64,000 bases of DNA from Glycomyces tenuis DSM 44171 (lineage in GTDB: Bacteria > Actinomycetota > Actinomycetes > Mycobacteriales > Micromonosporaceae), in NCBI RefSeq assembly GCF_000427885.1, contig NZ_ATYW01000009.1, forward strand, positions 182,641 through 246,640, given 5' to 3'. The position numbers and the translations under genes are program-made. The notes under the pieces were generated by a model. That model was given only the letters and a program-made list of their open reading frames with translations. It made no database searches and was not told where the DNA came from. Position 1 is the first letter of the stretch. Every line of letters starts with the position of its first letter. Of the stretch, positions 1,231 through 17,616 are shown one piece after another.

Positions 1231-1313
1231 GCGGCGACGATATCAATCCCCGTATCGGCCCATATCACCGTTGATATTGGACATATCCGGGCGGCTTCGG
1301 CTTGACTGCGGTC
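1231..1313. promoter_or_regulatory. Divergent intergenic region with inverted repeat, LysR-type gene versus metallo-hydrolase
   Basis: This AT-richer gap holds ATATCAA at 1240-1246 and its inverse TTGATAT at 1271-1277, with further CATATC words at 1261 and 1282. Such spaced dyads between a LysR gene and its divergent target are typical operator positions. No clean minus-35/minus-10 pair is evident. Confidence 0.4.
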
Positions 1314-2282
1314 ATGGAAGAACGACAACAGAGCACTGGAGTGACACGGCGCCGCCTGTGGATCACCGCGGGGACCGGCGCCGCCCTCGTGGCCGGCGGG
1401 AAGCTGGTCGGGGACGGCGCCCTCACCGCGTCGGCCGAGGAGGCGGGGCAGGAGGACCGCCCGCCGGTCGAGGCGCGGTGGCTCGGCACCAACGCCTGGG
1501 AGCTCAAGAGCGAGCACGCCACGGTGCTCATCGACCCGTGGGTGAGCCGCTTCCCCACCGGCGCCTACAAGGGCGGCGCCGACCCGGAGACCGACATCGA
1601 GGTGTACCCCGAGGTGATCGACGAGCACGTCGCGGCGGCCGACTGCGTGCTCGTCACGCACGGGCACTGGGACCACATCGCGGACGTCCCGTACGTCGCC
1701 TCCCGGACCGGCGCGACGGTGCTCGGCACCGAGACGCACCTGAACCTCCTGCGCGCCATGGACGCCCCCGAAGCACAGCTGGGGCAGGTGTCCGGCGGCG
1801 AGCTCTACCGGTTCGACGGCTTCACCGTCGAGGTGTTCCGCTCCTCGCACTCGGCGAGCGGCGAGCACAAGCGGATCCTGTTCTCCGGCAGCCGCCTCGG
1901 CGAAGTGCCGAAGCGGCCCAAGCGGATCGGGGACCTCGTCGAAGGCGGCAGCCTCACCTACCTGGTGGATTTCGGCGGCGTCTCCTTCTTCAACGCGGGA
2001 TCGGCGAACGTCCTGGGCCGGGAGATCGAGGGCGTCCGACCGACGGTGCTGTTCCTCCAGCCCGGCGGCGGCCACACGCCCGACTACGTCGAGCGCCTGC
2101 TGGAGGCGACCGGCCATCCGCCCTATGTCGTCCCGACGCACTGGGACGACTTCGACGAGCCACTGACCGAGCCCGCGGTCCCCGCCGGGGACTGGGAGGC
2201 GGTGCGCGACCGCGTCGCCGCCGCCAGCCCCGAATCCGAGTTCATCCTCATCGACCACCTGGAGAGCCATGTCTTCAACTGA
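1314..2282 (+). CDS. Tat-exported metallo-beta-lactamase-fold hydrolase
   Basis: A metallo-beta-lactamase-fold protein of about 322 aa. The zinc motif HGHWDH (HxHxDH) is intact, and later histidines (SSHS, THWDD) supply further ligand candidates. The N-terminus has a twin-arginine signal: TRRRLWITAG followed by a hydrophobic Ala/Gly stretch and an ASA-like cleavage site. I prefer the ATG at 1314; an in-frame TTG at 1302 would add four residues. The gene overlaps the next one, a close paralogue without signal peptide, by 14 bases, so both are probably co-translated. The RWLGTNAWE start and overall pattern resemble the UlaG/RomA-like branch of the fold. Substrate unknown; lactonase or phosphodiesterase activity is possible. 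Confidence 0.85.
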   Translation: MEERQQSTGVTRRRLWITAGTGAALVAGGKLVGDGALTASAEEAGQEDRPPVEARWLGTNAWELKSEHATVLIDPWVSRFPTGAYKGGADPETDIEVYPEVIDEHVAAADCVLVTHGHWDHIADVPYVASRTGATVLGTETHLNLLRAMDAPEAQLGQVSGGELYRFDGFTVEVFRSSHSASGEHKRILFSGSRLGEVPKRPKRIGDLVEGGSLTYLVDFGGVSFFNAGSANVLGREIEGVRPTVLFLQPGGGHTPDYVERLLEATGHPPYVVPTHWDDFDEPLTEPAVPAGDWEAVRDRVAAASPESEFILIDHLESHVFN

Positions 2283-3105
2283 GATCACCGTCCGCTGGCT
2301 GGGCACGAACGCCTGGGAGATCACCGGGAACGGTGCGACCGTCCTCGTCGACCCGTGGGTGACCCGCTTCCGCACCGGGGCGCCCAAGGGCGAGGAGTGG
2401 GACATGGACACCCCCTTGACGATCGACGAGGCGGCGGTGGACGAGCACATCGCGGCGGCCGACTGCATCCTGATCACCCACGGGCACTGGGACCACATCA
2501 CCGACGTCCCGTACGTGGCCGCCAAGACCGGCGCGACGGTGCTCGGCACCGAGACGCACCTGAACCTGCTGCGCGCCATGGACGCTCCCGAAGCACAGCT
2601 GGGGCAGGTGTCCGGCGGCGAGCTCTACCGGTTCGACGGCTTCACCGTCGACGTCTTCGAAGCCCACCACAACTCGAGCGGCAGGCACAAGCAGCTGCTG
2701 TTCGCGGGCAGCCGGGTCGGCGAGGTGCCCCGGCGCCCCGAGACCGTCAGGGACCTGGTGGAGGGCGGCAGCCTGGCCTACCTGGTGACGATCGGCGAGG
2801 CGCGGCTCCTCATCGGCGTCACGACGAACTTCCAGGAGCGGGAGATCGAGGGCGTCCGGCCCACGCTGCTGTTCATGCAGGCGGGCAGCCGGAACAGCCC
2901 GCGCTACGAGGAGCGGCTGCTGGAGGCGACCGGCCGCCCGCCGTACGTCGTGCCGACGCACTGGGACGACTACGAGGAGCCCCTGACCGAGCCCGCGGTC
3001 GACTGGCTGGGCGCGGAGCGGTTGGGGGAGAAGGTGTCCGAGCTCAGCCCCGAATCGGAGTTCGTCCTCCTGGACCACCTGGAGTCCTTCACCTTCGAAG
3101 GCTGA
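2269..3105 (+). CDS. Cytoplasmic metallo-beta-lactamase-fold hydrolase, paralogue of the upstream gene
   Basis: A 278-aa MBL-fold protein that starts directly at the catalytic fold (TVRWLGTNAWE) with no export signal. The zinc motif HGHWDH is retained. It is a tandem duplicate of the gene in front: the block from VLGTETHLNLL to DGFTV is identical in both, and the DNA there (about 1711-1824 versus 2531-2644) differs at only a few bases, while flanking parts have diverged (for example VDFGGVSFFNAGS versus VTIGEARLLIGVT). That pattern suggests recent gene conversion or strong selection. The ATG at 2269 lies inside the end of the upstream gene, implying translational coupling. Substrate unknown. 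Confidence 0.85.
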   Translation: MSSTEITVRWLGTNAWEITGNGATVLVDPWVTRFRTGAPKGEEWDMDTPLTIDEAAVDEHIAAADCILITHGHWDHITDVPYVAAKTGATVLGTETHLNLLRAMDAPEAQLGQVSGGELYRFDGFTVDVFEAHHNSSGRHKQLLFAGSRVGEVPRRPETVRDLVEGGSLAYLVTIGEARLLIGVTTNFQEREIEGVRPTLLFMQAGSRNSPRYEERLLEATGRPPYVVPTHWDDYEEPLTEPAVDWLGAERLGEKVSELSPESEFVLLDHLESFTFEG

Positions 3106-5397: not shown

Positions 5398-6402
5398 ATG
5401 TCGAACTTGAAGGTCTTGTTCATCGGCGGCAGCGGCATCATCAGCGCCTCGTGCGTGCGCGAGGCGGTGCGCCAGGGCCTCGACGTGACCGTCCTGAACC
5501 GCGGCACGAGCACGCTCCGCCGCCTGCCCGAGGGTGTCACCAGGCTCACCGCCGACTCGAACGACCCCGACTCGCTGCGCGAGGCGATCGGCGAGGACCA
5601 CTACGACGCCGTGGTCAACTGGGTCAACTTCGTGCCCGAGCAGGTCCAGCGCGACATCGACGTCTTCACCGGCCGCACCGACCAGTACGTCTTCATCAGC
5701 TCCGCCTCGGCCTACCAGACCCCGCCGAGCCGCATGCCCGTCGTCGAGTCCACGCCGCTGAAGAACCCGCACTGGCAGTACTCGCGCGACAAGATCGCCT
5801 GCGAAGAGCTCCTCGTCAAGGCCTACCGCGAGGACGACTTCCCGATGACGATCGTGCGCCCTTCCCACACCTACGACGAGACGCTCCTGCCCTTCGAGGC
5901 GAAGTGGAACGTCATCGAGCGGATGCGGGCGGGCAAGCCCGTCGTCGTCCACGGCGACGGCACTTCACTGTGGACCATCACGCACGCCCGCGACTTCGCC
6001 GTCGGCCTCGTCGGCCTGCTCGGCAAGGAGGCCGCGATCGGCGAGCCCTTCCACATCACCGGCGACGAGGCCCCCTCGTGGAACCAGATCTTCGAGGACG
6101 CCGCGGCCGCCGCGGGCGTGGCCGAACCGAAGCTCGTGCACATCGCCTCGGAGGCGATCGCCGCCGCGGTCCCCGAGTGGGGCCCGGGCCTGGTGGGGGA
6201 CAAGGCGCACACGATGATCTTCGACAACAGCAAGCTCAAGAACCTCGTGCCCGCCTTCGGGCAGACCACCACGCCGTTCAAGCTCGGCATCCGCGAGGTC
6301 GTCGCCTGGTACGACGCCCACCCCGAGCAGCAGACCACCGCGCCCGGCGTCGACGCGATCCAGGACCGCCTCATCGAGGCATTCGGCCCCCGGTCCCTCT
6401 AA
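5398..6402 (+). CDS. Extended-SDR NAD(P)-dependent epimerase/reductase family protein
   Basis: A 334-aa extended short-chain dehydrogenase. The Rossmann glycine motif GGSGIIS lies at about residues 9-15, an SSASAY segment carries the active-site serine region, and YSRDK holds the YxxxK catalytic pair. The C-terminal half (SLWTITHARDFA, FHITGDEAPSWNQIF) is typical of the isoflavone-reductase/UDP-glucose-epimerase-like group that acts on sugars or small alcohols. AGAAGGAG sits seven bases before the ATG. It stands alone on the plus strand and its stop overlaps by four bases the stop of the convergent LD-carboxypeptidase gene. Substrate cannot be named from sequence. Confidence 0.85.
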   Translation: MSNLKVLFIGGSGIISASCVREAVRQGLDVTVLNRGTSTLRRLPEGVTRLTADSNDPDSLREAIGEDHYDAVVNWVNFVPEQVQRDIDVFTGRTDQYVFISSASAYQTPPSRMPVVESTPLKNPHWQYSRDKIACEELLVKAYREDDFPMTIVRPSHTYDETLLPFEAKWNVIERMRAGKPVVVHGDGTSLWTITHARDFAVGLVGLLGKEAAIGEPFHITGDEAPSWNQIFEDAAAAAGVAEPKLVHIASEAIAAAVPEWGPGLVGDKAHTMIFDNSKLKNLVPAFGQTTTPFKLGIREVVAWYDAHPEQQTTAPGVDAIQDRLIEAFGPRSL

Positions 6403-7328
6403 CGCAGCGCCGGGATCTCGAACGCGAGCGTCCCGGCGTCGGCGTCCAGGACCGCCGGAACGCCGAGCGGGACCGTCAGCGACGGTGTGCAGTGCCCGAA
6501 GCCGAAGTCCTCGACGACCGGGACGCCCAGATCGCCGACCAGATCCGCCAGGGTCGCGTGCAGACGCCGCTCCCCGTTGTTCTCCACCCACGAGCCGAGC
6601 ACGATCCCGGCGACGCCGCCGAGCCAGCCCGATCGCCGCAACTGCGTCAGGTACCGGTCGACCCGGTAGTCGTCCTCACCGGTGTCCTCGAGCAGCAGGA
6701 TGCCGCCCTCGCAGTCGTCGCGGTGCTCGGGCGTGCCGATCCCGGACGCGAGGAGGCTCAGGCAGCCGCCGACCGTGACGCCCCTCGCCCGTCCCGGCGC
6801 GAGCGTCCGCGCGCTCGGCGGCGCGATCGTCTGCACCGACTCAGGGGAGAACAGGCTGCGCCGCAGGTGCTCCTGCATCGCCGCGCCCTCGATGAACCGC
6901 GACCAGTTCGGCATGGGCCCGTGGAGGGTGGCGACGCCGAGGCGGAGCGCGATCGCCTCGTGCAGGGCGGTGACGTCGCTGAAACCGACGAACGCCTTCG
7001 GCTCGGCGTCGGCGAGCGCCGCCCAGTCGACGAGGTCGATCATGCGCTGCGCCCCGTAACCGCCTCGGGCGCACACCACGGCCGTGAACGACCGGTCGGC
7101 CCAGGCGGCCTCGAAGTCGCGGGCGCGGTCGCCGTCGCTCCCCGCCAGGTACGGCAGGCGCGGATGGGTCTCGCGGACGTGCGGCATCTCGACCGGCTCC
7201 AGGCCCCACGACCGCAAGACGCCCAAGCCCTTGTCGAGCTGGTCCTCCGGGCCCGGCGTGGCCGGTGAGACGACCGCGACGCGGTCGCCCTCCTTGAGCC
7301 GCGGCGGCCTGCGCAGCGCCTTGATCAT
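6399..7328 (-). CDS. LD-carboxypeptidase, peptidase family S66
   Basis: A 309-aa S66 enzyme. This family removes the terminal D-alanine from L,D-linked muropeptide tetrapeptides in murein recycling (LdcA) or processes related peptides. The catalytic triad can be placed: Ser117 in GFSDVTAL, Glu214 in LLLEDTGED and His279 in FGFGHCTPSL, close to the reference spacing of Ser115/Glu217/His285; the CARGGYG motif precedes the serine. No signal peptide, so it acts in the cytoplasm. It is the last gene of the long minus-strand operon. Its ATG at 7328 overlaps the stop of the S9 peptidase gene (ATGA), with GGAG eight bases before. An in-frame GTG at 7337 is the alternative start. Confidence 0.93.
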   Translation of the reverse strand: MIKALRRPPRLKEGDRVAVVSPATPGPEDQLDKGLGVLRSWGLEPVEMPHVRETHPRLPYLAGSDGDRARDFEAAWADRSFTAVVCARGGYGAQRMIDLVDWAALADAEPKAFVGFSDVTALHEAIALRLGVATLHGPMPNWSRFIEGAAMQEHLRRSLFSPESVQTIAPPSARTLAPGRARGVTVGGCLSLLASGIGTPEHRDDCEGGILLLEDTGEDDYRVDRYLTQLRRSGWLGGVAGIVLGSWVENNGERRLHATLADLVGDLGVPVVEDFGFGHCTPSLTVPLGVPAVLDADAGTLAFEIPALR

Positions 7329-9319
7329 GCCCGCCACTCCAATGCCGCGCCCGCGGGCGCCTCGAAACCGAACACCCGAGCGTACAGCGCGTGCTCGGCC
7401 AGGACCGCGCTCACGATCGTGGACGCCCGCCGGAAACCGTGCTGCTCGCCCTCGTACGCGAGGTAGGCGTGGGGGATCCCCCTGCCCTCGACGCGCTCCA
7501 GCAGCCGCTCGCTCTGCGCGGGCGTGCAGATCGCGTCCTCCAGGCCCTGCAGCAGGAGGAACGGCGCCGAGATCCGGCCGGCGTGGTTCACCGGCGAGCG
7601 CTCGCGGTACCGCTCGGGCACCTCGTCGACCGGCCCGATCAGCGTGTGCAGGTACCGCGATTCGAAGTCGTGCGTCGCGTCGCCGAGCCAGCCCGACAGG
7701 TCCAGAATGGGGTACTTGATCGTCGCGCAGGCGTAGAGCCCTTCGGCCGCGGCAGAGGCCAGCGACGCGGCGGAGGTCCAGCCTCCGGCGCTGCCGCCCC
7801 TGATCGCCAGGCGCGAGCCGTCGGCGGTGCCCTCCTCGGCGAGCGCCCGCGCCACGGCCGCGCAGTCCTCGACGTCCACCACGCCCCACTGCTCGCGCAG
7901 CCGCTCGCGGTACTCGCGCCCGTAGCCGGTCGAGCCGCCGTAGTTCACCTCCGCCACGCCGATGCCCCTCGAGGTGAAGTAGGCCAGCTCCAGGTCGAGG
8001 GCGGCCCGGACGTGGCTGGTGGGCCCGCCGTGGACCCAGACCACGTACGGCGGCAGTTCCCCTGCCGGGGCCGCGAAGTCGGGATTGCGCGGCGGGTAGA
8101 CGTGGGCGTGGACCTCGCGCCCGCCCGGACCGGTGAAGGTCCGGTGCTCCGGTTCGGGGTAGTAGGCGGGGTCGACGGGATCGGCGTGCGGTTCGCCGAC
8201 GATGCGGACCTCGCCGGTGACGGTGTCGCAGGCGACGATCTCGTAGGTCCGGTCGGGCCCGGCGGCGAGGCCGAACACCGTGTCGCCCTGGGCGAGCAGC
8301 GACGGCGCCCAATCGGTCCACGGACCGCCGGCCACGCCGCTCATCGCCCCCAGATCGGGGTCGAGGACGCCGAGCACGCTCTCGCCCCGGCCGTGGACAG
8401 TGGCGATGCGGCCGTCGTCGAGGACCTGGAACCACCTCGAACCGATCGTCCACAGGGCCCCGGCGAACTCCTCCTCGGCCGGATACAGCTCGACGGTCTC
8501 CCCGGAACCGGGGTCGATCCGGTACAGGTTCCACCAGCCGGTGCGGTCGCTCGCGGCGATGAGCGTGCCGTCGGGCGCCCACTCGGCCTGCGGAACGGAC
8601 TCCCCGCCGCCCCCGGCGACGGTCCGCACGTCCTTGAAGGCGCCGCCCGAGGTGACGGTGGCGACGCGCAGTTCCGTCTCGTCCCACGGCATGTCCGGGT
8701 GGTTCCAGGCGATCCACGCGACCGCCGTGCCGTCAGGGCTGATGCGCGGACCGGTCGTGAAGCGGTAGGCGTCGTCGGTCAGCTCGCGGACCGCCGCGCG
8801 GTCCTCGGCGGCCGAGCCGTCCAGCGGCACCGCCGCCAGGACCCGCCGCAGCTGCGTGGACCGCTTCCCGGTGAACTCCTCGAGGACCGCCCACACCTCG
8901 TCGCGGCCGGGGGCGAACCCCATGTCGCACCACCGCAGTCCGCTCGGGAACCGCGGCTCCGGGGTGATCGGGCGCGGCTCGCGCCCGCTGTCGGGCTCGA
9001 AGACGTAGAGCCGCTGGTCGTCGAAGTTCGAGAAGACGACCAGTGGCCCGTCGCCGGTCATGCGGCCGACCCAGGGCGTCCCGCCGTACTCGTGGACGCG
9101 GTTGCGGACGTTCCACGGCTCGGGCAGCACCGACTCGGTCGAGCCGTCGCCGCGGCGGCGGACCAGCGCCCGGCGCCCGCCCTCGGCCGGGCGCGGCTCG
9201 GTCCACCACAGCTCGCCGCCGACCGTGCCGAGGAACCCCGGCCGTCCGTCACCCGCCGCCACCATCTCCGCGGTGATCGGTGACGCCCAAGTGCCGCAAG
9301 GGGAGCGTTCCACGCTCAT
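7325..9319 (-). CDS. S9 family peptidase (acylaminoacyl-peptidase / prolyl-oligopeptidase type)
   Basis: A 664-aa two-domain serine peptidase. Residues 1 to about 390 form the beta-propeller that restricts entry to short peptides (repeated blades such as WAPDGTLIAASDRTGWWNLY). The C-terminal alpha/beta hydrolase domain has the triad Ser510 in GGSAGG, Asp595 in LQGLEDA and His627 in GEQHGF. No signal peptide is present. It would cleave oligopeptides delivered by the transporter encoded upstream in the same operon. The ATG at 9319 overlaps the stop of the M20 gene (ATGA), and the reading frame can be followed without break to the TGA that overlaps the LD-carboxypeptidase start. Exact specificity (acyl-aminoacyl versus prolyl) cannot be told. 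Confidence 0.92.
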   Translation of the reverse strand: MSVERSPCGTWASPITAEMVAAGDGRPGFLGTVGGELWWTEPRPAEGGRRALVRRRGDGSTESVLPEPWNVRNRVHEYGGTPWVGRMTGDGPLVVFSNFDDQRLYVFEPDSGREPRPITPEPRFPSGLRWCDMGFAPGRDEVWAVLEEFTGKRSTQLRRVLAAVPLDGSAAEDRAAVRELTDDAYRFTTGPRISPDGTAVAWIAWNHPDMPWDETELRVATVTSGGAFKDVRTVAGGGGESVPQAEWAPDGTLIAASDRTGWWNLYRIDPGSGETVELYPAEEEFAGALWTIGSRWFQVLDDGRIATVHGRGESVLGVLDPDLGAMSGVAGGPWTDWAPSLLAQGDTVFGLAAGPDRTYEIVACDTVTGEVRIVGEPHADPVDPAYYPEPEHRTFTGPGGREVHAHVYPPRNPDFAAPAGELPPYVVWVHGGPTSHVRAALDLELAYFTSRGIGVAEVNYGGSTGYGREYRERLREQWGVVDVEDCAAVARALAEEGTADGSRLAIRGGSAGGWTSAASLASAAAEGLYACATIKYPILDLSGWLGDATHDFESRYLHTLIGPVDEVPERYRERSPVNHAGRISAPFLLLQGLEDAICTPAQSERLLERVEGRGIPHAYLAYEGEQHGFRRASTIVSAVLAEHALYARVFGFEAPAGAALEWRA

Positions 9320-10650
9320 GCCCTCCTCAAGAACTCGTCGAGCACGCTCACCCCGAAATGCAGGCCCTCCACCGGGACGCGCTCGTCCACGCCGTGCGCG
9401 AGCCTGCCGTAGCCGAACTCGGGCGGCACCTTGAGCGGCGAGAAGCCGTAGCCGACGACGCCCAGGCGCGAGAACTGCTTCGCGTCCGTGCCGCCCGACA
9501 TGCAGTAGGGCACGACGTGCCCTTCGGGGTCGAACTTCAGGACCGCCTCGCGCGCCGCCGCGAACGTGGGCGAGTCCACCGGCGCGCTGAGCGCCACCTC
9601 CCGGTGCTGGAACTCCCAGTCCACCTCGGGCCCGGTCAGCTCGTTCATCGTCGCGATGAACTCCTCCTCCCAGCCGGGCAGCATCCGGCCGTCCACCTGC
9701 GCGGCGGCGTGCTCGGGGATGACGTTGACCTTGTACCCGGCCTCGAACACGGTCGGGTTGGCGCTGTTGCGCAGCGTCGACTCGACCAGTTGCGCCGCCG
9801 GTCCCAGCCGCGCGAGCAGCGCGTCCACGTCGAAGTCCGCGTCGTCCAGGTCCGCCTCGACGCCGTACACCGCGGCCAGCCCGGTCAGGGCCGCGCGCAC
9901 CGTCGGCACCAGCCGTACCGGCCAGCGGTGCCGCCCGATGCGGGCGACGGCCTCGGCGAGGATCGTCACCGCGTTGTGCGGGTTGGCCTTCGAGCCGTGC
10001 CCGGCCCGGCCGCGGGCGGTCAGGTTCAGCCACGCGGTGCCGCGCTCGCCCGCCCCGATCGGGTAGATCCGCAGCCCGTCGCCGCCGTGGAAGCTGTAGC
10101 CGCCCGCCTCGCTGACGCCCTCGGTGCAGCCTTCGAACAGCTCGCCGTGGTGGTCGGCGAGGAAGCCGGAGCCGTACTCGGCGCTCGCCTCCTCGTCGGC
10201 GGTGAACGCCACGACGACGTCCCGCCTCGGCCGCACTCCCGCTCTGGCCCAGGACCGCACCGCGGCCAGGATCATCGCGTCCATGCCCTTCATGTCGAGC
10301 GCGCCGCGGCCCCACACGATCCCGTCGCGGACCTCGCCGGAGAACGGGTCGACCGACCAGTCGGCGGCCGCGGCGGGCACGACGTCGAGATGGCCGTGCA
10401 CCAGCAGCGCGTCGGCGGACGAGTCGTCTCCGGCGATCCGCGCCACCACGTTCGAGCGGCCCGGCGCCTTCTCGAGGATCACCGGTTCGGCGCCCGCCTC
10501 GGCGAGGCGCTCGGCGGCGTATTCGGCGGCCTCGCGCTCGCGGCCGTCGCCGCCGCCGCGGTTGGTGGTGTCGATGCGGATCAGCTCGGAGGTGAAGCGG
10601 ACGACCTCCTGGAGCGAGCGCTCGTCGACGATCTGATCGGACTCAGCCAT
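9316..10650 (-). CDS. M20 family metallopeptidase (ArgE/DapE/CPG2-like)
   Basis: A 444-aa dinuclear zinc peptidase/deacylase. The ligand motifs are complete: HGHLDVVP with His87, GRGALDMKG with Asp119, and ADEEASAE with the catalytic and bridging glutamates 153-154; a dimerisation insert follows (about 210-330). Family members hydrolyse dipeptides, aminoacyl or acyl-amino acids. GGAGGAAT lies directly before the ATG at 10650, inside the 3' end of the D-aminopeptidase gene; the two genes overlap by eight bases. Placed between a D-aminopeptidase and an S9 peptidase, it probably trims imported peptides in the cytoplasm. Annotation as ArgE or DapE would be unsupported. Confidence 0.92.
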   Translation of the reverse strand: MAESDQIVDERSLQEVVRFTSELIRIDTTNRGGGDGREREAAEYAAERLAEAGAEPVILEKAPGRSNVVARIAGDDSSADALLVHGHLDVVPAAAADWSVDPFSGEVRDGIVWGRGALDMKGMDAMILAAVRSWARAGVRPRRDVVVAFTADEEASAEYGSGFLADHHGELFEGCTEGVSEAGGYSFHGGDGLRIYPIGAGERGTAWLNLTARGRAGHGSKANPHNAVTILAEAVARIGRHRWPVRLVPTVRAALTGLAAVYGVEADLDDADFDVDALLARLGPAAQLVESTLRNSANPTVFEAGYKVNVIPEHAAAQVDGRMLPGWEEEFIATMNELTGPEVDWEFQHREVALSAPVDSPTFAAAREAVLKFDPEGHVVPYCMSGGTDAKQFSRLGVVGYGFSPLKVPPEFGYGRLAHGVDERVPVEGLHFGVSVLDEFLRRA

Positions 10651-11476
10651 ATTCCTCCTCCACCGCCGCGGCGGCCACGGTGGTGACCGCCTTGAAGCAT
10701 CGGATTCCCTTGTACATCGTCTTGGCCTTGAAGGCGACTCTGCGCTCGTCGCTCTGGGACACCCCCGGAATGACGGTCGCCGCCCCGGCCAGGTGCTCGG
10801 CGTCGAACTCGACTTCGAACCGGTGCGGCCCGTTCACGGCCTTGTCGCGGCGCCCGGCCAGCGCCATCGCCTGTTCGGCCGCCCGCCGGATGTCGGCGGC
10901 GGTGCGAGCGGGAGGCCGGCAGACCGCCGCATAGCGCGAGACATAGTCCTTGACCGCCACGCCGACGGCGCCCGGCGCGTACCAGCGCGAATCACGGATG
11001 GTCTTGTCGTCGCCGGTCACCAGGATCACCGGCACCCCGAACTCGTCGGCGACCTTCGCGTTCAGGTAGCCCTCGCTGGCCGGGTAGTCGTCCAGCCACA
11101 CGCCGGTGATGCTATTGGCCAGGTAGGTGTGCGCGAGCACCCCTTCGGCTCCGGCCCCCGCGTGGTAGCCGAGAAAGACGACGCCGTCGACGTCGCCGTG
11201 CTGGACGCCCTCCATCATGGACAGTTCCTTGTGCCGTCCGGTGAGCATCGAGGCGCGCTCGTCGAGCCGCTCCAGCAGCAGGTTCCGCATCGTCCAATGG
11301 GCCTCGTTGACCAGCACCGCGTCCGCTCCGCCGTCGAAGAGCCCGGCGATCGCCGCGTTCACGTCCCCGGTGAAGACCGGCCGCTGCCGCTCCCACTGCG
11401 GCCCGCCGGGCAGCACGTCGGCCGGGCACGTGACACCGGTGGCGCCCTCCATGTCGGCGCTGATGAGGATCTTCAC
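10643..11476 (-). CDS. M55 family D-aminopeptidase (DppA type)
   Basis: A 277-aa relative of Bacillus DppA, the zinc D-aminopeptidase that releases N-terminal D-alanine from D-Ala-containing peptides. Ligands match the reference positions closely: Asp8 and Glu10 in SADMEG, His60 in NEAHW, His105 in GYHAGAG, with His116 and the conserved SEGYLN segment after. The start is a GTG at 11476 overlapping the stop of the upstream ATPase gene (GTGA). The B. subtilis dpp operon also links such an enzyme with a peptide ABC transporter, which supports a role in taking in and degrading cell-wall D-amino-acid peptides. Cytoplasmic, probably a decamer as in the family. Confidence 0.95.
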   Translation of the reverse strand: MKILISADMEGATGVTCPADVLPGGPQWERQRPVFTGDVNAAIAGLFDGGADAVLVNEAHWTMRNLLLERLDERASMLTGRHKELSMMEGVQHGDVDGVVFLGYHAGAGAEGVLAHTYLANSITGVWLDDYPASEGYLNAKVADEFGVPVILVTGDDKTIRDSRWYAPGAVGVAVKDYVSRYAAVCRPPARTAADIRRAAEQAMALAGRRDKAVNGPHRFEVEFDAEHLAGAATVIPGVSQSDERRVAFKAKTMYKGIRCFKAVTTVAAAAVEEEYG

Positions 11477-12459
11477 GCCGCCGCCCGCCGCTCGATCCGG
11501 TGAAGGTGGCAGGCCACCCGGTGCCGCGACGCGTCGGCCGACAGCACCTCGAGGTCCTCGCGCTCGCACTGGTCCGAGACCGCCGAGGCCCGGCCCGAGG
11601 CGTACTCCTGGCAGCGCGGCCGGAAGCGGCATCCGCCGGGGATCTTCGCCGCATCGGGCAGCTCCCCGGACAGGACGATCGGCTTCGGCAGCGGCGAGTC
11701 GGGCAGGACCGACACCAGCGCCCGCGTGTACGGGTGCCGCGGCTCGGTGAGCACCTGCTCGACCGGGCCCTGCTCGACGATCCGCCCGAGGTACATGATC
11801 GCGATCCGGTCGGCGATGCTCCAGGCCAGGCCCAGGTCGTGGGTGATCACCAGCGCGCCGAGGTCCATCTCCTCGCGCAGCCGCAGCAGCAGTGCGAGGA
11901 TCTCGCCGCGCACCGACGCGTCCAGGCTCGCCACCGGCTCGTCGGCGATGATGATGCTCGGGTCCAGGACCAGCGCGCCCGCGATCACCGCCCGCTGGCG
12001 CTGCCCGCCGGAGAGCTCGTGCGGATAGGACAGGAAGAACTTCTCGGCGGGCCGCAGCCCGGCCCGCGCGAGCGCGTCGGCGACCCGCTCGGTCTCGTCG
12101 TCGACCAGGCCGTGGATGCGCAGCCCTTCGGCCACCGCGTCGTAGATCGTGTGGCGCGGGTTCAGTGCGCCCGTCGGGTCCTGGAGGATCAGCTGGACCT
12201 TGCGGCGGTAGGCCTTCAGCGCCTTGGTGGAGTAGCGCAGCGGCTCGTCCCCGAAGGAGACCGATCCGCGCGTCGCCCGCTCCAGGCCGAGCAGCGTGCG
12301 CGCCAGCGTCGTCTTCCCGCAGCCCGACTCGCCCGCCAGAGCGACGATCTCGCCGGGCGCCACATCAAGGTTGACGCCGTCGACCGCCCTGGCCGTCCTC
12401 CCGCCCGGCAGGCCGAAGTCCACGCCGAGGTCTCTTGCGGACAAGAGCGGTGATGTCAC
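11473..12459 (-). CDS. Oligopeptide-type ABC transporter ATP-binding protein (OppF/DppF type)
   Basis: A 328-aa ATPase energising the peptide importer of this operon. Walker A GESGCGKT (about residues 38-45), Q-loop [13 protein letters not shown], signature LSGGQRQR, Walker B IIIADEP with D-loop SLDAS, and switch His in VITHDLG are all intact. The C-terminal oligopeptide-transporter extension includes the Cys-rich [10 protein letters not shown] segment characteristic of Opp/Dpp ATPases. The start is a GTG at 12459 overlapping the stop of the companion ATPase gene (GTGA). Confidence 0.95.
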
Positions 12460-13460
12460 TGGAGTGCCTCCTCGTCCGTCGAGGCGATCGGGTCGCCGGC
12501 CTGGGCCACGAAGCAGGCGCTGCTCCTGTCGCCCGCGCCCGGCAGCCCCAGCAGCTCCGGTTCGGCGTCGGCGCATTCGGCGACGGCGACCGGGCAGCGC
12601 GGCCGGAACGAGCAGCCCGACGGCAGATCGGCCGGGTCGGGCGGATCGCCGGCCAGACCCCCCGGCCGTTTGCGGGAGGCCGCGTCGCCGATGACCGGGA
12701 ACGCCGCCCCGAGCGCGTGCGAGTACGGATGCCGGGCGTCGGCGAACAGCTCGCGGGCCGGACCGAGCTCGACGACGCGCCCGGCGTACATGACCGCGGT
12801 CCGGTCGCACGTGGCCGACAGCACCGACAGGTCGTGGCTGATCATGACCAGTCCGACGCCGCGCTCGGCCACGAGACCAGTGATGAGCTCCAGCACCTGG
12901 GCCTGCACCATGACGTCGAGTGCGGTGGTGGCCTCGTCGGCGATGATCAGCTCCGGGCCGCACGCCAGGGCCATCGCGATCATGACCCGCTGGCGCTGCC
13001 CGCCGGACAGCTCGTGCGGGTAGTTCCGCGCCCGCGAGGCCGGCAGGCCGACCAGTTCGAGCAGTTCGGCGGCCCTGCGGGACGCCTCGGTCTTGGTGAC
13101 GTGCTCGTGCACCAGGATCGGTTCGGCGATCTGCGGGCCGATCCGCTGCACCGCGTTCAGCGAGTGCATCGCCCCCTGGAAGACGATCGAGGCCCCGACC
13201 CACCTGACGGCGCGCAGCCGGCCCCAGCCCATCGTGAGCACGTCCTCCCCGGACAGCAGGACCTCGCCGGTGACGGCCGCGGTCCGCGGCAGCAGCCGCA
13301 GGATCGCCATAGCCAGTGTGGACTTCCCGCAGCCGGACTCGCCGGCGACGCCGAGCGTCCGCCCCGCCTCCAGCGTCAAGTCCACGCCCCGGACGGCCGG
13401 GACCGCGCCGCGCGAGGTGCGGTAGGTGACGTTGAGATCGCGGATCTCGAGCAGCGTCAC
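12456..13460 (-). CDS. Oligopeptide-type ABC transporter ATP-binding protein (OppD/DppD type)
   Basis: A 334-aa ATPase, the second motor subunit of the peptide importer. It carries Walker A GESGCGKS, signature LSGGQRQR, Walker [13 protein letters not shown] and switch MISHDLS, and ends with the Opp/Dpp domain containing [10 protein letters not shown]. The Q-loop region reads [14 protein letters not shown], typical of the OppD branch, which separates it from the OppF-like partner. The GTG start at 13460 overlaps the stop of the DppC-like permease (GTGA). Confidence 0.95.
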
Positions 13461-14371
13461 GGCGCCTCACCTCGCAGACGGGGGTTGAACACGGCCTCCA
13501 GAGCCCTGCCGCACATCATGAACGCGGCGACGACGATGAGGATCGCCAGGCCCGGCGGCAGCAGGTACCACCAGGCGTGCGCCGAGACCGCCCCGTTGCT
13601 GGAGGCGCGGTTGAGGATCGAGCCCCACGAGACGACGTTCGGGTCGCCCAGGCCCAGCCACGCCAGCGAGGACTCCATGAGGATCGCCGAGGGCACCAGC
13701 AGCGTCGCGCTCGCCAGTACCAGCGGCAGCACGTTCGGCAGGATGTGGCGGGTCATCTGGTGCCAGTGGCCGGCGCCGAGTGCCCGCGCCCGCTCCAGGT
13801 AGGGCCTGGCCTGCACGGTCAGCGTCTGGGCGCGCACCAGGCGGGCCGTGCTCGACCAGGACACGAGCGCGATGACGGCGACCGTGGTGGCGAAGCTGCG
13901 CCCCAGCACGGCCAGCAGCGCGATCGCCACGACCAGGCTCGGCAGCACCATGAACCAGTCGGAGACGCGCAGCGCGATCCAGCCGTACCAGCCGCCGACG
14001 TGGCCGCTGGTGATCCCGACGAGCGTGCCGACGAGGATCGCCGCGACCGTCGCGGTCAGCCCGATGAGCAGCGACAGCCTCGTGCCCCACACGGTCAGCG
14101 CCAGGACCGAGCGGCCGGTCTCGTCGGTGCCCAGCGGGAACTCGGCGCTGGGCGGGGACATGCGGCCGCCGGTGGCCTGCGTGACGCTCAAGGCCGAGGC
14201 GTCGATCAGCAGCGGCGCGGCCAAGGCGAGGAGCACGATCGCGCCCAGGACCACCAGGCCGACCATGCCGCTGCGCTGGGCGCGGTAGTCGCGCCAGGCG
14301 CGCGCCACCGCCCGCCTGCGCCGGGCCCGTCGCACCGCCCGTGGGGACATCGCTCGCGTCGCAGTGCTCAT
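13457..14371 (-). CDS. Peptide-type ABC transporter permease (DppC/OppC type)
   Basis: A 304-aa inner membrane permease. A basic N-terminal tail is followed by a first helix ([21 protein letters not shown]), an extracytoplasmic loop with the family motif [20 protein letters not shown], and about five further helices. The EAA-type coupling loop reads [23 protein letters not shown]. The ATG at 14371 overlaps the stop of the DppB-like gene (ATGA). It pairs with that permease to form the channel. Confidence 0.94.
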
Positions 14372-15444
14372 GACTTCCGGATCCTCGGGTCGATGAACCA
14401 GTACAGGATCTCCGCGCACAGCACCGCGATGATCGTCGAACTGGAGAACAGGACGAACAGGGCCTGGAGCATGGGCCGGTCGGGGTAGAAGATCGAGGAG
14501 ACGAACAGGCTCCCCAGGCCCGGCCAGCTGAAGACCGTCTCGGTGATGATCGCGCCGTTGACGATGTTCCCGATCGCCAGGAACACCATCGTGATCGTCG
14601 GCAGCAGCGCGTTCGGGACGGCGTGCCTGCGGCGCACCGCGTCGTCGCGCAGGCCCTTGGCGCGGGCGGTGGTCAGGTAGTCGGCGCCGATCTCGTCGAG
14701 GATCGAGGAGCGCATGACCATCAGGTACCCCGCGTAGACCACCGCGGTGTAGGTGAGCACCGGCAGCACCATGTGGTGTCCGATGTCGAGCGCCTGCGAC
14801 AGGAGGCCGTCGGGCGTGCTCGCCGAGCGCATCCCGTTGACGGGGAACAGCCCCAGGTAGCGGGCGAAGACCAGGATGACGATCATGCCGAGCCAGAACG
14901 TCGGCGCCGAGTACAGCAGCAGCCCGGCGGCGACATGGGAGCGGTCGAAGCGGCTGCCCTGCTTCCAGCCCGCGCGGGTGCCGATCCAGAAGCCGAGCAG
15001 GACGGCCAGGACGACGCCGGTGCCCGACAGCAGCAGCGTCGCCGGGAGCCGCTCGAGGACCAGCTCGGAGATCGGCTGGCGGTACTGGAGCGAGGTGCCG
15101 AGGTCGCCGGTCAGGGTGCCGGTGATGTAGTCGAGGAACTGGTTCCACAACGGCTGGTCCAGGCCCAGCTCGGCGCGCATCGCCTCCCGCTGCTCGGGCG
15201 TGACCGGGCGCTCGCGGGTGAGCTGGTCGATCGGGTCGCCGGCGATGAGCCGGAAGATGAAGAACGAGGAGAACAGCACCAGCAGCAGGGACACGGCGGC
15301 GCCGCTGAGGTGTTTGAGCAGGTAACGTCCGAATCCCGTGGTGACGCGGCCGGTGGGCGCGGTTCCGGGGCCTGCTGCCGGTGCCTGTTCCGCGGACGGG
15401 TCCCGGTCGGGGCCCCCGTCCGCGGAAGGTCGATGAGCGGTCAT
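14368..15444 (-). CDS. Peptide-type ABC transporter permease (DppB/OppB type)
   Basis: A 358-aa permease with the DppB pattern: first helix AVSLLLVLFSSFFIFRLIAGDP, loop REAMRAELGLDQPLW, then six-helix core with the EAA loop DYLTTARAKGLRDDAVRRRHAVPNALLP. It has an unusually long, Pro/Ala-rich and hydrophilic N-terminal tail of about 40 residues that is absent from standard DppB proteins. It starts ten bases after the binding-protein gene, with GGGAG overlapping that gene's stop as ribosome site; this is the only junction of the operon without an overlap. Confidence 0.94.
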   Translation of the reverse strand: MTAHRPSADGGPDRDPSAEQAPAAGPGTAPTGRVTTGFGRYLLKHLSGAAVSLLLVLFSSFFIFRLIAGDPIDQLTRERPVTPEQREAMRAELGLDQPLWNQFLDYITGTLTGDLGTSLQYRQPISELVLERLPATLLLSGTGVVLAVLLGFWIGTRAGWKQGSRFDRSHVAAGLLLYSAPTFWLGMIVILVFARYLGLFPVNGMRSASTPDGLLSQALDIGHHMVLPVLTYTAVVYAGYLMVMRSSILDEIGADYLTTARAKGLRDDAVRRRHAVPNALLPTITMVFLAIGNIVNGAIITETVFSWPGLGSLFVSSIFYPDRPMLQALFVLFSSSTIIAVLCAEILYWFIDPRIRKS

Positions 15445-15454
15445 CGGATGCCGG

Positions 15455-17278
15455 TCACTCCCGTTCGTCGGCGGTGCTCCTGCGCCGCATGAAGAGGAAG
15501 GCGCCCCCGGCGACGAGGACCAGGAGGACCGCCCCCGCGCCCATGAGCACGCCGGTGGAGACGCCGCCGTCGTCCTCGCCCCCGACCGGCGTGGCGGACA
15601 GGAAGGACCAGATGAAGCCCTGCTGCCCGGTGATCATGCCGCCCTCGGCGGGCTGGACGGTGAAGTCGTCCACCCGCTCATGGTTGTAGGCCTCCAGGAC
15701 GTTCTGGTAGTAGAGCCAGATGACCGGCGCGTCCTGGTAGAGGATCCGCTGCTGCTCCCTGACCAGCTCGGCGCGGGCCTCGGGGTCGGGCTCGACCACC
15801 TGCTGCTCGTGGAGGGCGTCGTACTCCTCGTTGCAGTAGAAGTTCTCGTGCGAGCGCTCCGAGCCGTCGGTGGTGGTCGGCAGCACCTCGCAGGTGTGCA
15901 TGGCCAGCATCTCGGTCGGGTTGGGGCCCACGCCCCAGCCGGAGAAGGCGATGTCGTACTCGCCGAGGTAGACCAGGTCGTTCAGCGAGCCCTGCTCGAT
16001 CGGCTCGGAGACGATCTCCAGGCCGAGCTCCTCCCACCACTCGGTCACGAACTGGACCACGTTGGCGTAGTCGGTGTAGTCGGCATGGTGGTAGAAGCGG
16101 AAGCTGAGCGGATCGCCGCCGCCGGGCATGGTGCGGATGCCGTCCTCGCCGCGCTCGTAGCCGGCCTCGTCGAGCAGTCGGTTGGCCTCGTCGATGCTGA
16201 ACTGGACGAGCTCGTCGCCGCCGTCCCAATGCCACTGCTCGAAGATCGCGGGGATGATCGACACGGCCGGATCGCCGTTGCCGTCAAGGACCTTGTCGAC
16301 CAGCTCCGCCTTGTCGATCGCGGTGTGGAGCGCTTGTCGCACCACCGGGTCGCGCAGCGCGGGATGGCCGTCGCCGTACAGTTCGCCGTCGGCGGTCTGG
16401 GCGCCGTGGTTGAGGATCAGCGAGACGAAGCGGCGGCCCTGGGCGTTGTTGACCGTGACGTGGTCCTGGCCTTCGAGGGCCTCCATCTGGGCCGGGTTGA
16501 GCCCCCTGACGAGGTCGACCTCTCCGGCCTCCAGGGCGGCGACGGCGGCGTCGCCCTCGCTGTAGTAGTCGTAGACGATCTCATCGAAGCCCGGCGCGCC
16601 GTCCCAGTACTCCTCGTTGGCCTCCAAGCGGACGAGCTCGTTGGCGCGGTACTCGCTGACCTGGAACGGGCCGGATCCGACCAGGGGCATCCGGTCGTTG
16701 GCGTCGTCGGCCGAGGGATCGGGGTAGGTCTCCCAGATGTGCTTGGGCACGATGAAGATCCCCGCATTGAGGACCTCGGCGGGCGCGGCCTCCTTGAGCG
16801 TCAGCACGAAGGTCGTGTCGTCGGGGGCCTCGGCGCTGACGAGGTTGCCCGCGAAGTCGATGTTCCAGTCGTGGATGGCGGGATCGCTGATGAGCAGGTC
16901 GTAGGTGTAGGCCACGTCCTCGGCGGTCAGGGACTCGCCGTCGGACCACTCGACGCCTTCGCGGATGGTGAAGGTCCACGTCAGGCCGTCGTCGCTTTCC
17001 TGCCACTCGCTGGCCAGGCCCGGCACCGGCTCGTAGTTCTCCGCTCCGGTCCTGATGAGAGTGTCGTACGTCATCAGGTTGGTCTCGTACGTGATGATGT
17101 AGCGCGACTTGAAGGGGTTGAAGGTGTCGACCTCCTGGTCGGTGGCGACCAGCAGCCGGTCGACCTCGCCGTCGTCCTGGGCGGCGGCCTGCGTCGACGT
17201 CGCGGTGAGGATGCCGGCGGACAGCGCCAGGGCGGCTCCGGCGGCCGAGAGCCGCCGCGTCATCGGTCTGGTTCTCAT
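15455..17278 (-). CDS. Peptide-type (family 5) solute-binding protein with C-terminal membrane anchor
   Basis: A 607-aa extracytoplasmic binding protein and first gene of the nine-gene operon. Residues 1-34 form a Sec-type signal peptide (RRLSAAGAALALSAGILTATSTQA) with no lipobox cysteine. The SBP_bac_5 fold follows (VDTFNPFKSRYI; LTWTFTIREGVEWSDGESLTAEDVAYTY in split form; the late FSGWGVGPNP region). Unlike classic Dpp/Opp lipoproteins it ends with a hydrophobic helix (GVLMGAGAVLLVLVAGGAFLF) and RRR stop-transfer, so it is tethered by its C-terminus. The ATG at 17278 is followed by a second ATG five codons on. Ligand is inferred, from the D-aminopeptidase and LD-carboxypeptidase genes downstream, to be D-amino-acid-containing peptides. 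Confidence 0.93.
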   Translation of the reverse strand: MRTRPMTRRLSAAGAALALSAGILTATSTQAAAQDDGEVDRLLVATDQEVDTFNPFKSRYIITYETNLMTYDTLIRTGAENYEPVPGLASEWQESDDGLTWTFTIREGVEWSDGESLTAEDVAYTYDLLISDPAIHDWNIDFAGNLVSAEAPDDTTFVLTLKEAAPAEVLNAGIFIVPKHIWETYPDPSADDANDRMPLVGSGPFQVSEYRANELVRLEANEEYWDGAPGFDEIVYDYYSEGDAAVAALEAGEVDLVRGLNPAQMEALEGQDHVTVNNAQGRRFVSLILNHGAQTADGELYGDGHPALRDPVVRQALHTAIDKAELVDKVLDGNGDPAVSIIPAIFEQWHWDGGDELVQFSIDEANRLLDEAGYERGEDGIRTMPGGGDPLSFRFYHHADYTDYANVVQFVTEWWEELGLEIVSEPIEQGSLNDLVYLGEYDIAFSGWGVGPNPTEMLAMHTCEVLPTTTDGSERSHENFYCNEEYDALHEQQVVEPDPEARAELVREQQRILYQDAPVIWLYYQNVLEAYNHERVDDFTVQPAEGGMITGQQGFIWSFLSATPVGGEDDGGVSTGVLMGAGAVLLVLVAGGAFLFMRRRSTADERE

Positions 17279-17616
17279 GAGGGGCGGTACCTCGCATTCG
17301 GATCCGAACGGATCGGTCTCCGGTCGTCGGGCTTCGGTGGATCGGATGTGGGGCTCGCGCGCTTCGCCGTGGCCGGAGTAATCGGGCCTTTGGTGTAGGG
17401 AACAGGATGACGGAAATCTTCTTCTTTTGTCAATGTTGCGGAGAAAGTTTTCAGGTGTGGCGATGTTTGCGAGCCGTTGACTGGCAGAGTTGGAGTCGAA
17501 CTGGTATGCATTGACCCACCTTGGCCGACCGTCCCCATAGATTATGCGGAGCGCGGCCCCGGATTCCGCACTGGGCGGGCCGGCGATCGTGGGAACTGAG
17601 ATGAGGAGAACCGAAG
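17279..17616. promoter_or_regulatory. Divergent intergenic region with promoter of the peptide-transport operon
   Basis: This 338-base AT-richer gap separates the operon from the VOC gene. On the minus strand TTGACA (17433-17428) and TCATCC (17410-17405) are spaced by 17 bases, a good minus-35 with a weak minus-10, leaving a leader of roughly 120 bases. On the plus strand TTGACT (17477) and TTGACC (17511) occur but no well-spaced minus-10 was found. A minus-strand reading frame of 87 codons here has no coding character. Confidence 0.5.

Follow-up and report, generated by a model that had tools for sequence, protein, structure and literature searches.

A nine-gene operon in Glycomyces tenuis

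The 64,000-nucleotide stretch analysed here (the window) comes from Glycomyces tenuis DSM 44171, the genome of which is a set of 44 contigs of 5.7 Mb. It carries nine reading frames for a family 5 ATP-binding cassette (ABC) transporter and four peptidases, all on the minus strand, in the order solute-binding protein (SBP), permeases P1 and P2, ATPases A1 and A2, and the peptidases M55, M20, S9 and S66. These genes are considered below as a candidate system for the uptake and breakdown of peptides that contain D-amino acids. The features of the locus are as follows.

17390-17455 (limits approximate), minus strand: conserved upstream block with TTGACA, probable promoter region of the operon (predicted from an alignment)
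15455-17278, minus strand: SBP, family 5 solute-binding protein of 607 amino acids (Pfam SBP_bac_5, 297.8 bits)
15491-15553, minus strand: C-terminal membrane helix of the SBP, about residues 576-596 (hydropathy 2.43 over 19 residues; boundaries approximate)
15458-15490, minus strand: conserved C-terminal tail of the SBP, ending in RRRSTADERE (sequence and comparison of homologues)
14368-15444, minus strand: P1, permease of OppB/DppB type (Pfam BPD_transp_1)
13457-14371, minus strand: P2, permease of OppC/DppC type (Pfam BPD_transp_1, OppC_N)
12456-13460, minus strand: A1, ATPase of OppD/DppD type (Pfam ABC_tran, oligo_HPY)
11473-12459, minus strand: A2, ATPase of OppF/DppF type (Pfam ABC_tran, oligo_HPY)
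10643-11476, minus strand: M55 D-aminopeptidase, DppA-like (Pfam Peptidase_M55, 291.5 bits; 132 bits to 1hi9, DppA)
9316-10650, minus strand: M20 metallohydrolase, PRK07906 subfamily (Pfam Peptidase_M20; NCBIfam PRK07906, 651 bits, cut-off 382)
7325-9319, minus strand: S9 serine aminopeptidase, puromycin-hydrolase type (Pfam Peptidase_S9; 923 bits to 3azo)
6399-7328, minus strand: S66 serine carboxypeptidase, LdcA-like (Pfam S66 and S66C; 166 bits to 1zl0)

Seven of the eight junctions between these genes overlap, six of them by 4 nucleotides (nt; ATGA or GTGA) and one, from M55 to M20, by 8 nt; the sole exception in the window is the junction from SBP to P1, with a gap of 10 nt. The last gene, S66, also overlaps a convergent frame on the plus strand (5398-6402) by four bases. 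An earlier sequence-only reading of the window had described just such a single-strand unit with the same overlaps, which the frame coordinates bear out, and the gene families that it named are recovered by Pfam and NCBIfam scans. Chance can be ruled out as the origin of the overlaps because the junctions are conserved across the Glycomyces group (see below).

The nine genes are probably transcribed as one mRNA. Some 150 bases upstream, a TTGACA-containing block is kept in 21 aligned upstream regions of the Glycomyces group (core at 17425-17452 in the window), and a single operon promoter probably sits there. A simple consensus promoter scan left this block uncalled and gave one weak site inside M20 instead, and a simple scan of the operon region found no terminator. 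An upstream IclR-type gene was discarded as a regulator of the operon: the order IclR-glpF-glpK-glpD on the plus strand (names assigned by eye) suggests that it serves the glycerol genes.

Conservation in the Glycomyces group

The family was sampled with 200 genomes, 22 of them from the same genus, including that of the window. Within the genus, M55 is found in 19 of 22 genomes and the SBP in 20 of 22; leaving out the window genome, 16 of 21 carry the full set of nine on a single contig and strand. In two more (G453 and G432; G handles denote genomes and L handles loci) the nine genes are split over contigs, and in G428 and G441 neither the SBP nor M55 was matched. A genome of a different genus (G308) has all nine genes too. 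The gene order is constant across the group, blurred solely where frames run from stop to stop (L171). Seven loci from named Glycomyces carry the complete set, but they belong to genomes already counted and are not independent cases; several other named loci (L272, L274 and L277) likewise repeat genomes of the G series.

Junctions were surveyed in 17 or 18 loci of the group each, with gene starts estimated from the alignment. The most constant are A2 to M55 (overlap of 4 nt in 17/17), S9 to S66 (4 nt in 18/18), P2 to A1 (overlapping in 18/18) and M55 to M20 (8 nt in 17/18, the exception being L172, with an insert of about 1.4 kb). Overlap is less regular from SBP to P1 (12/17), P1 to P2 (13/18) and A1 to A2 (12/18), and from M20 to S9 it occurs in only 1/18.

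The four peptidases

The sequence-only reading had held that all four active sites are intact, and the residues, which are taken here to be the catalytic and metal-site positions, are indeed present in the window and invariant among the collected homologues apart from gaps. These counts include the window, and some genomes are present twice. In M55, D8, E10, H60, H105, H116 and E135 are kept in 100/100 sequences; in S66, S117, E214 and H279 in 88/88; in S9, S510, D595 and H627 in 78/81, with three gaps; and in M20, H87, D89, D119, E153, E154 and E181 in 103/103 and H419 in 102/103, with one gap. As regards the statement that the peptidases have no signal peptide, a hydropathy scan, which is not a signal-peptide predictor, found no strongly hydrophobic N-terminal stretch in any of the four.

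M55 aligns with DppA (1hi9) across 267 residues, with its metal residues matched to those of the DppA active site, presumably Asp8, Glu10, His60, His104, His115 and Glu133. It reaches 173.6 bits against the NCBIfam equivalog model of Bacillus DppA, which has a cut-off of 430, and is thus called DppA-like and not a DppA equivalog. S66 scores 166 bits to LdcA (1zl0) and 131 bits to the best MccF, and 129 bits against the equivalog model of Escherichia coli LdcA (cut-off 378). It is probably of LdcA type, and its family and the invariant Ser-Glu-His suggest a role like that of YkfA. An MccF-type immunity function was discarded for it since LdcA scores higher, with MccF not far behind.

S9 matches 3azo and 3azp over its full length, with 923 bits; the title of the PDB entry is "Aminopeptidase", and 3azp has Ala in place of the Ser of the S9 motif GGSAGGW. 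The entries 3azo, 3azp and 3azq are taken to be the puromycin hydrolase of Streptomyces morookaense. The S9 of the cassette in a genome of family f20 (genus g24) comes even closer, with 1053 bits to 3azo. By its full-length similarity and its Ser-Asp-His, the S9 of the window appears to be of the puromycin-hydrolase type.

A membrane-anchored binding protein

Solute-binding proteins of the lipoprotein type known from Gram-positive bacteria have a lipobox Cys and no C-terminal helix, and the window SBP differs on both counts. Its N-terminus is Sec-like and lacks a lipobox, and a membrane helix near the C-terminus is followed by the RRRSTADERE tail. Among homologues above 300 bits, 38 of 39 end in -RE behind a hydrophobic helix; one of these 39 (L184) has a lipobox in addition and two (L185 and L189) are ambiguous. 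In the class, all 29 loci inspected, which hold the top matches out of 77 genomes, have the helix and the -RE end; two of these loci come from genomes already represented in the set of 39. Among named loci, the best 80 of 573 relatives, 77/80 end in -RE, the others being two Microbacterium proteins ending in -VE and one with an odd end; some genomes occur more than once in this set. In all, the feature was seen over loci L162-L198, L202-L230 and L262-L341 and at 15458-15553 of the window. By contrast, ten family 5 SBPs taken as controls, from these genomes or relatives of them, all carry a lipobox, and none has a helix of this kind. Thus, a membrane helix apparently replaces the lipid anchor in this clade, in which the end is usually -[DE][DE]RE, and the tail presumably lies in the cytosol. 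The nearest named SBPs are from Glycomyces, at 69-75% identity, and an actinomycete contig from a metagenome-assembled genome reaches 82%.

The peptidase cassette across the class

Of the 296 class genomes sampled, 85 have an M55 gene. The nine proteins of the window were used to search 90 M55 neighbourhoods; a small number of M55 matches that were weak or partial were left out. The resulting 91 loci, the window included, were split by score into a window-like M55 clade (64 loci) and a divergent one (27 loci). In 42 of the 64 window-like loci, M20, S9 and S66 all lie close to M55 and share its strand. The remainder have M20 and S66 (10), M20 and S9 (8), M20 alone (1), S9 and S66 (1) or no partner (2), and contig ends explain some of the missing genes. 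In the divergent clade, the partners of the quartet were found in 0/27. The scattering of the four genes over related genomes, which the sequence-only reading had raised as a possible counter-argument, is therefore not what the window-like loci display. Its description of S9 and M20 as additions has to be inverted: M55-M20-S9-S66 is a stable class-wide core, whereas a transporter joined directly to it is a feature of the Glycomyces group.

Members of the divergent M55 lineage (L084, L089, L092, L094, L095 and L099) have another set of family 5 transporter genes close by, in an arrangement nearer the classic dpp pattern.

Transporter and peptidases beyond the genus

Outside the Glycomyces group, a transporter of this type is exceptional within the M55 locus, being found in L061, L072 and L065, and behind S66 in L119 and L078. 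In the wider genome set, with membership of the transporter clade set at an SBP match with E up to 1e-60, 45 of the 60 genomes that have M55-M20 also have the clade, as do 32 of the 236 that lack M55-M20. The Fisher odds ratio is 19 (p 8e-20), a value that is uncorrected for ancestry and is inflated by shared descent. In 21 of the 45 genomes the best transporter and M55-M20 pair lies less than 30 kb apart, where simple arithmetic (60 kb in 6.5 Mb) predicts about 1% by chance; 15 of the 21 belong to family f21, and counting the second M55 of G101 would raise the number of pairs to 22.

The named loci, of which 79 of the 80 were used and in which some flanks end at contig ends, show M55, M20 or S66 beside the transporter in 19/79: in Glycomyces and, in other orders, in Pseudonocardiaceae, Actinopolyspora, Microbacterium, Arthrobacter and Streptomonospora. 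In Saccharomonospora and Amycolatopsis a divergent M20-M55 pair lies on one flank of the transporter and S66 with S9 on the other, and in Saccharothrix, Actinophytocola and Actinopolyspora the transporter stands beside M55, with M20 or S66. In Streptomonospora, M55-M20 lies about 3 kb beyond the transporter, and in Arthrobacter and Microbacterium S66 follows the ATPases and an M20 or CPG2-like M20 precedes the transporter. On the SBP tree, the peptidase-linked label requires four changes, at least three of them forced by well-supported branches (by a quick method), although some of the four may be losses of a single ancient linkage, and long branches were flagged. That the order differs between separate lineages speaks more for a functional cause of the link than for common descent, without amounting to proof. 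Across the class, the transporter seldom adjoins the quartet.

D-amino-acid and wall-related neighbours in relatives

In related genomes the transporter has further neighbours that hint at its substrates. A Peptidase_S58 protein reaches 325 bits in L190, with similar proteins in L191, L192, L197 and L233, together with an oligopeptidase B-like protein. A menC/NSAR-like protein scores 294 bits in L198 and 287 bits in L072 against TIGR01928 (cut-off 200.65), and an Amidohydro_3 protein is found in L183. S58 and NSAR have roles related to D-amino acids, and the S58, NSAR-like and amidohydrolase neighbours lean towards the use of D-amino-acid peptides. BadF/NagK-like kinases occur with a DeoR regulator in L186, L188 and L189, the NagK model in L188 scoring below its cut-off, and L188 also has an S13 DacB; the neighbours in L188 and L189 would rather fit the recycling of wall sugars and peptides. 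The D-residue theme of the sequence-only reading is thus supported, resting on M55 and S66 in the operon and, in relatives, on the transporter's neighbours of S58, menC/NSAR-like, S13 and amidohydrolase type.

A GNAT-like protein is also present near the transporter in L198, L072 and L200; this label was given by eye, and Pfam and NCBIfam scans of the protein gave no match. In L072, a single run on one strand holds M20, SBP, P1, P2, A1, A2, GNAT-like, menC-like, M55, CPG2-like M20 and S66. The transporter, M55 or S66 having menC/NSAR-like and GNAT-like genes as neighbours (L072, L200, L198, L320 and L336) points to a possible D-to-L amino acid salvage route in these relatives. An N-succinyl racemase route of this kind was discarded for the window genome, where a search made without a positive control gave no matching GNAT and no scanned MR_MLE protein reached the menC cut-off.

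Elsewhere in the window, two adjacent, overlapping and similar frames at 1302-3105 have the look of metallo-beta-lactamase-fold hydrolases, and a frame at 65-928 resembles a class A beta-lactamase-type serine hydrolase (both by eye). In L296, a bla_class_A-like gene lies near S66 (51.8 bits, below the cut-off).

Possible functions of the operon

It is proposed, at a probability of roughly 0.58, that the operon imports peptides of mixed chirality and removes them stepwise in the cytosol, for nutrition. A single transcript would encode all the parts: the membrane-anchored SBP, the ABC importer of family 5 and the four peptidases, which would act in the cytosol. Peptides with D-residues, which ordinary peptidases handle poorly, would be captured and imported, and S9 would then take L-residues, and M55 D-residues, off the amino end. 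At the carboxyl end, S66 would remove D-residues, and M20 would remove L-residues or, alternatively, an acyl cap. The product would be free amino acids for growth, with stem peptides of the cell wall as a likely, plausibly the main, but non-exclusive source. Breakdown inside the cell after import, as the sequence-only reading had it, is supported by the parts of the operon, which would extend the dpp/ykf kind known from Bacillus.

Several observations weigh against this proposal, in addition to the shared ancestry and the possible losses mentioned above. Most quartet loci of the class have no transporter alongside. At E 1e-60, the transporter clade is lacking in 15 of the 60 M55-M20 genomes, and it is present in 32 genomes that lack M55-M20. 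The named loci of Streptomyces, Nocardiopsis, Kribbella and Jiangella have no such peptidase in the flanks examined, of up to 10 kb. Even within the genus, G362, the SBP of which (L162) is the closest relative at 87% identity, has the other eight genes and no M55 match in the genome. A second S66 gene lies elsewhere in the window genome, outside the operon, and M20 has no closely related characterised enzyme, its solved relatives being distant and the best of them a succinyl-diaminopimelate desuccinylase (DapE) with 83 bits. Finally, the SBP has Gly at the position of the ligand Asp, which is shared by E. coli DppA, OppA and MppA in the alignment and is presumably the residue that binds the amino group of the peptide; seven other aligned members of the clade have Asn or Ser, so that Asp is absent in 8/8. 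Nevertheless, one of the best solved matches of the SBP, AppA (1xoc), also lacks this Asp in the alignment and binds a peptide, so that the window SBP may still have a peptide ligand.

Among the alternatives, general peptide nutrition is slightly ahead, although unlikely; here four housekeeping peptidases would be co-expressed with a generalist oligopeptide importer and action on D-residues would be a side activity. The frequent occurrence of the quartet without the transporter fits this view, as do the L-aminopeptidase type of S9 and the genes seen by eye near four of the eight quartet loci listed, which are methionine aminopeptidase-like (L061 and L119) or of rpsB-tsf-frr type (L110 and L043). 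However, two of the four enzymes come from D-residue families, and genes of D-amino-acid type recur near the transporter in relatives.

A dedicated muropeptide scavenging system is unlikely to nearly the same degree; like dpp/ykf in Bacillus, it would take up intact stem tri- and tetrapeptides, released from the organism's own wall or from foreign ones, and use them. M55, S66 and the family 5 ABC transporter do recall dpp/ykf, and six NlpC/P60 proteins encoded elsewhere in the window genome could, as a prediction, cut the wall first; the kinases and DacB near the transporter in relatives would also agree with it. However, no gamma-D-glutamyl-diaminopimelate endopeptidase (YkfC-like) was found among the nine operon genes with Pfam and NCBIfam. 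An L-Ala-D/L-Glu epimerase (YkfB) is likewise absent from the operon, and none of the seven MR_MLE matches of the genome was recognised as one: the six that were scanned all have sugar-acid dehydratase models as their best match, the seventh is enolase-like by eye, and none exceeds the epimerase cut-off. Thus, a complete Bacillus-type route is not shown, and the self-contained muropeptide module of the sequence-only reading is not supported. Muropeptide specificity is similarly unproven, as S9 is linked by relationship to puromycin hydrolase and not to the wall, and the SBP lacks the Asp that is kept in MppA.

According to PMC2954226, ykfA-D adjoin dppB-E in Bacillus subtilis, which corrects the earlier statement that Bacillus splits these functions, and YkfA, YkfC and YkfB are employed there on murein peptides; an editorial (PMC10009517) reports DppE with a murein tripeptide bound. 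The B. subtilis dppA-E/ykfA-D genes share with the window an M55 peptidase, a family 5 ABC importer with its SBP and an S66 LD-carboxypeptidase. The window operon differs in lacking the ykfB epimerase and ykfC endopeptidase, in having S9 and M20 in addition, in its membrane-anchored SBP and in its gene order. It therefore appears dpp/ykf-like in outline, minus two defining parts and plus two enzymes. The E. coli system of MppA/Opp with LdcA, MpaA and YcjG is alike in outline, with import followed by cytosolic trimming, and in K-12 a stretch of about 6 kb holds ycjG, mpaA and mppA. In contrast, the nine window genes, to which the search for MpaA was confined, include no counterpart of MpaA or YcjG, no epimerase was recognised in the genome, and the window SBP has Gly where MppA has Asp. 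YejBEF-YepA, described as a muropeptide importer of Agrobacterium (PMC9790009), is also an ABC importer, but alphaproteobacterial.

A stronger form of the proposed mixed-chirality system, in which four exopeptidases covering both ends and both hands form a chirality-complete unit and the tail of the tethered SBP docks on the importer or on the peptidases, so that capture, import and degradation would be one assembly, is rather unlikely. Detoxification, with the enzymes acting in the cytosol against antibiotics of peptidic or peptidyl-nucleoside type, is very improbable: S9 is puromycin-hydrolase-like and S66 is also related to MccF, but an importer in the same operon would carry the poison inward, S66 is closer to LdcA than to MccF, and the quartet is spread over several families.

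Significance

The reuse of D-amino-acid peptides in actinobacteria is, to our knowledge, poorly described, and searches of open-licence PMC papers turned up none that was recognised as describing the cassette, the SBP tail or the role of S9. The four-peptidase cassette, with its recurrent specific importer, provides named genes for deletion and enzyme tests. The membrane-anchored SBP with its conserved tail is a concrete, testable oddity within a well-known transporter family. Finally, the S. morookaense puromycin hydrolase has reportedly been studied as a single drug-inactivating enzyme, whereas its full-length homologue in the window belongs to a peptidase cassette; the puromycin-hydrolase homologue thereby gets a plausible everyday job.

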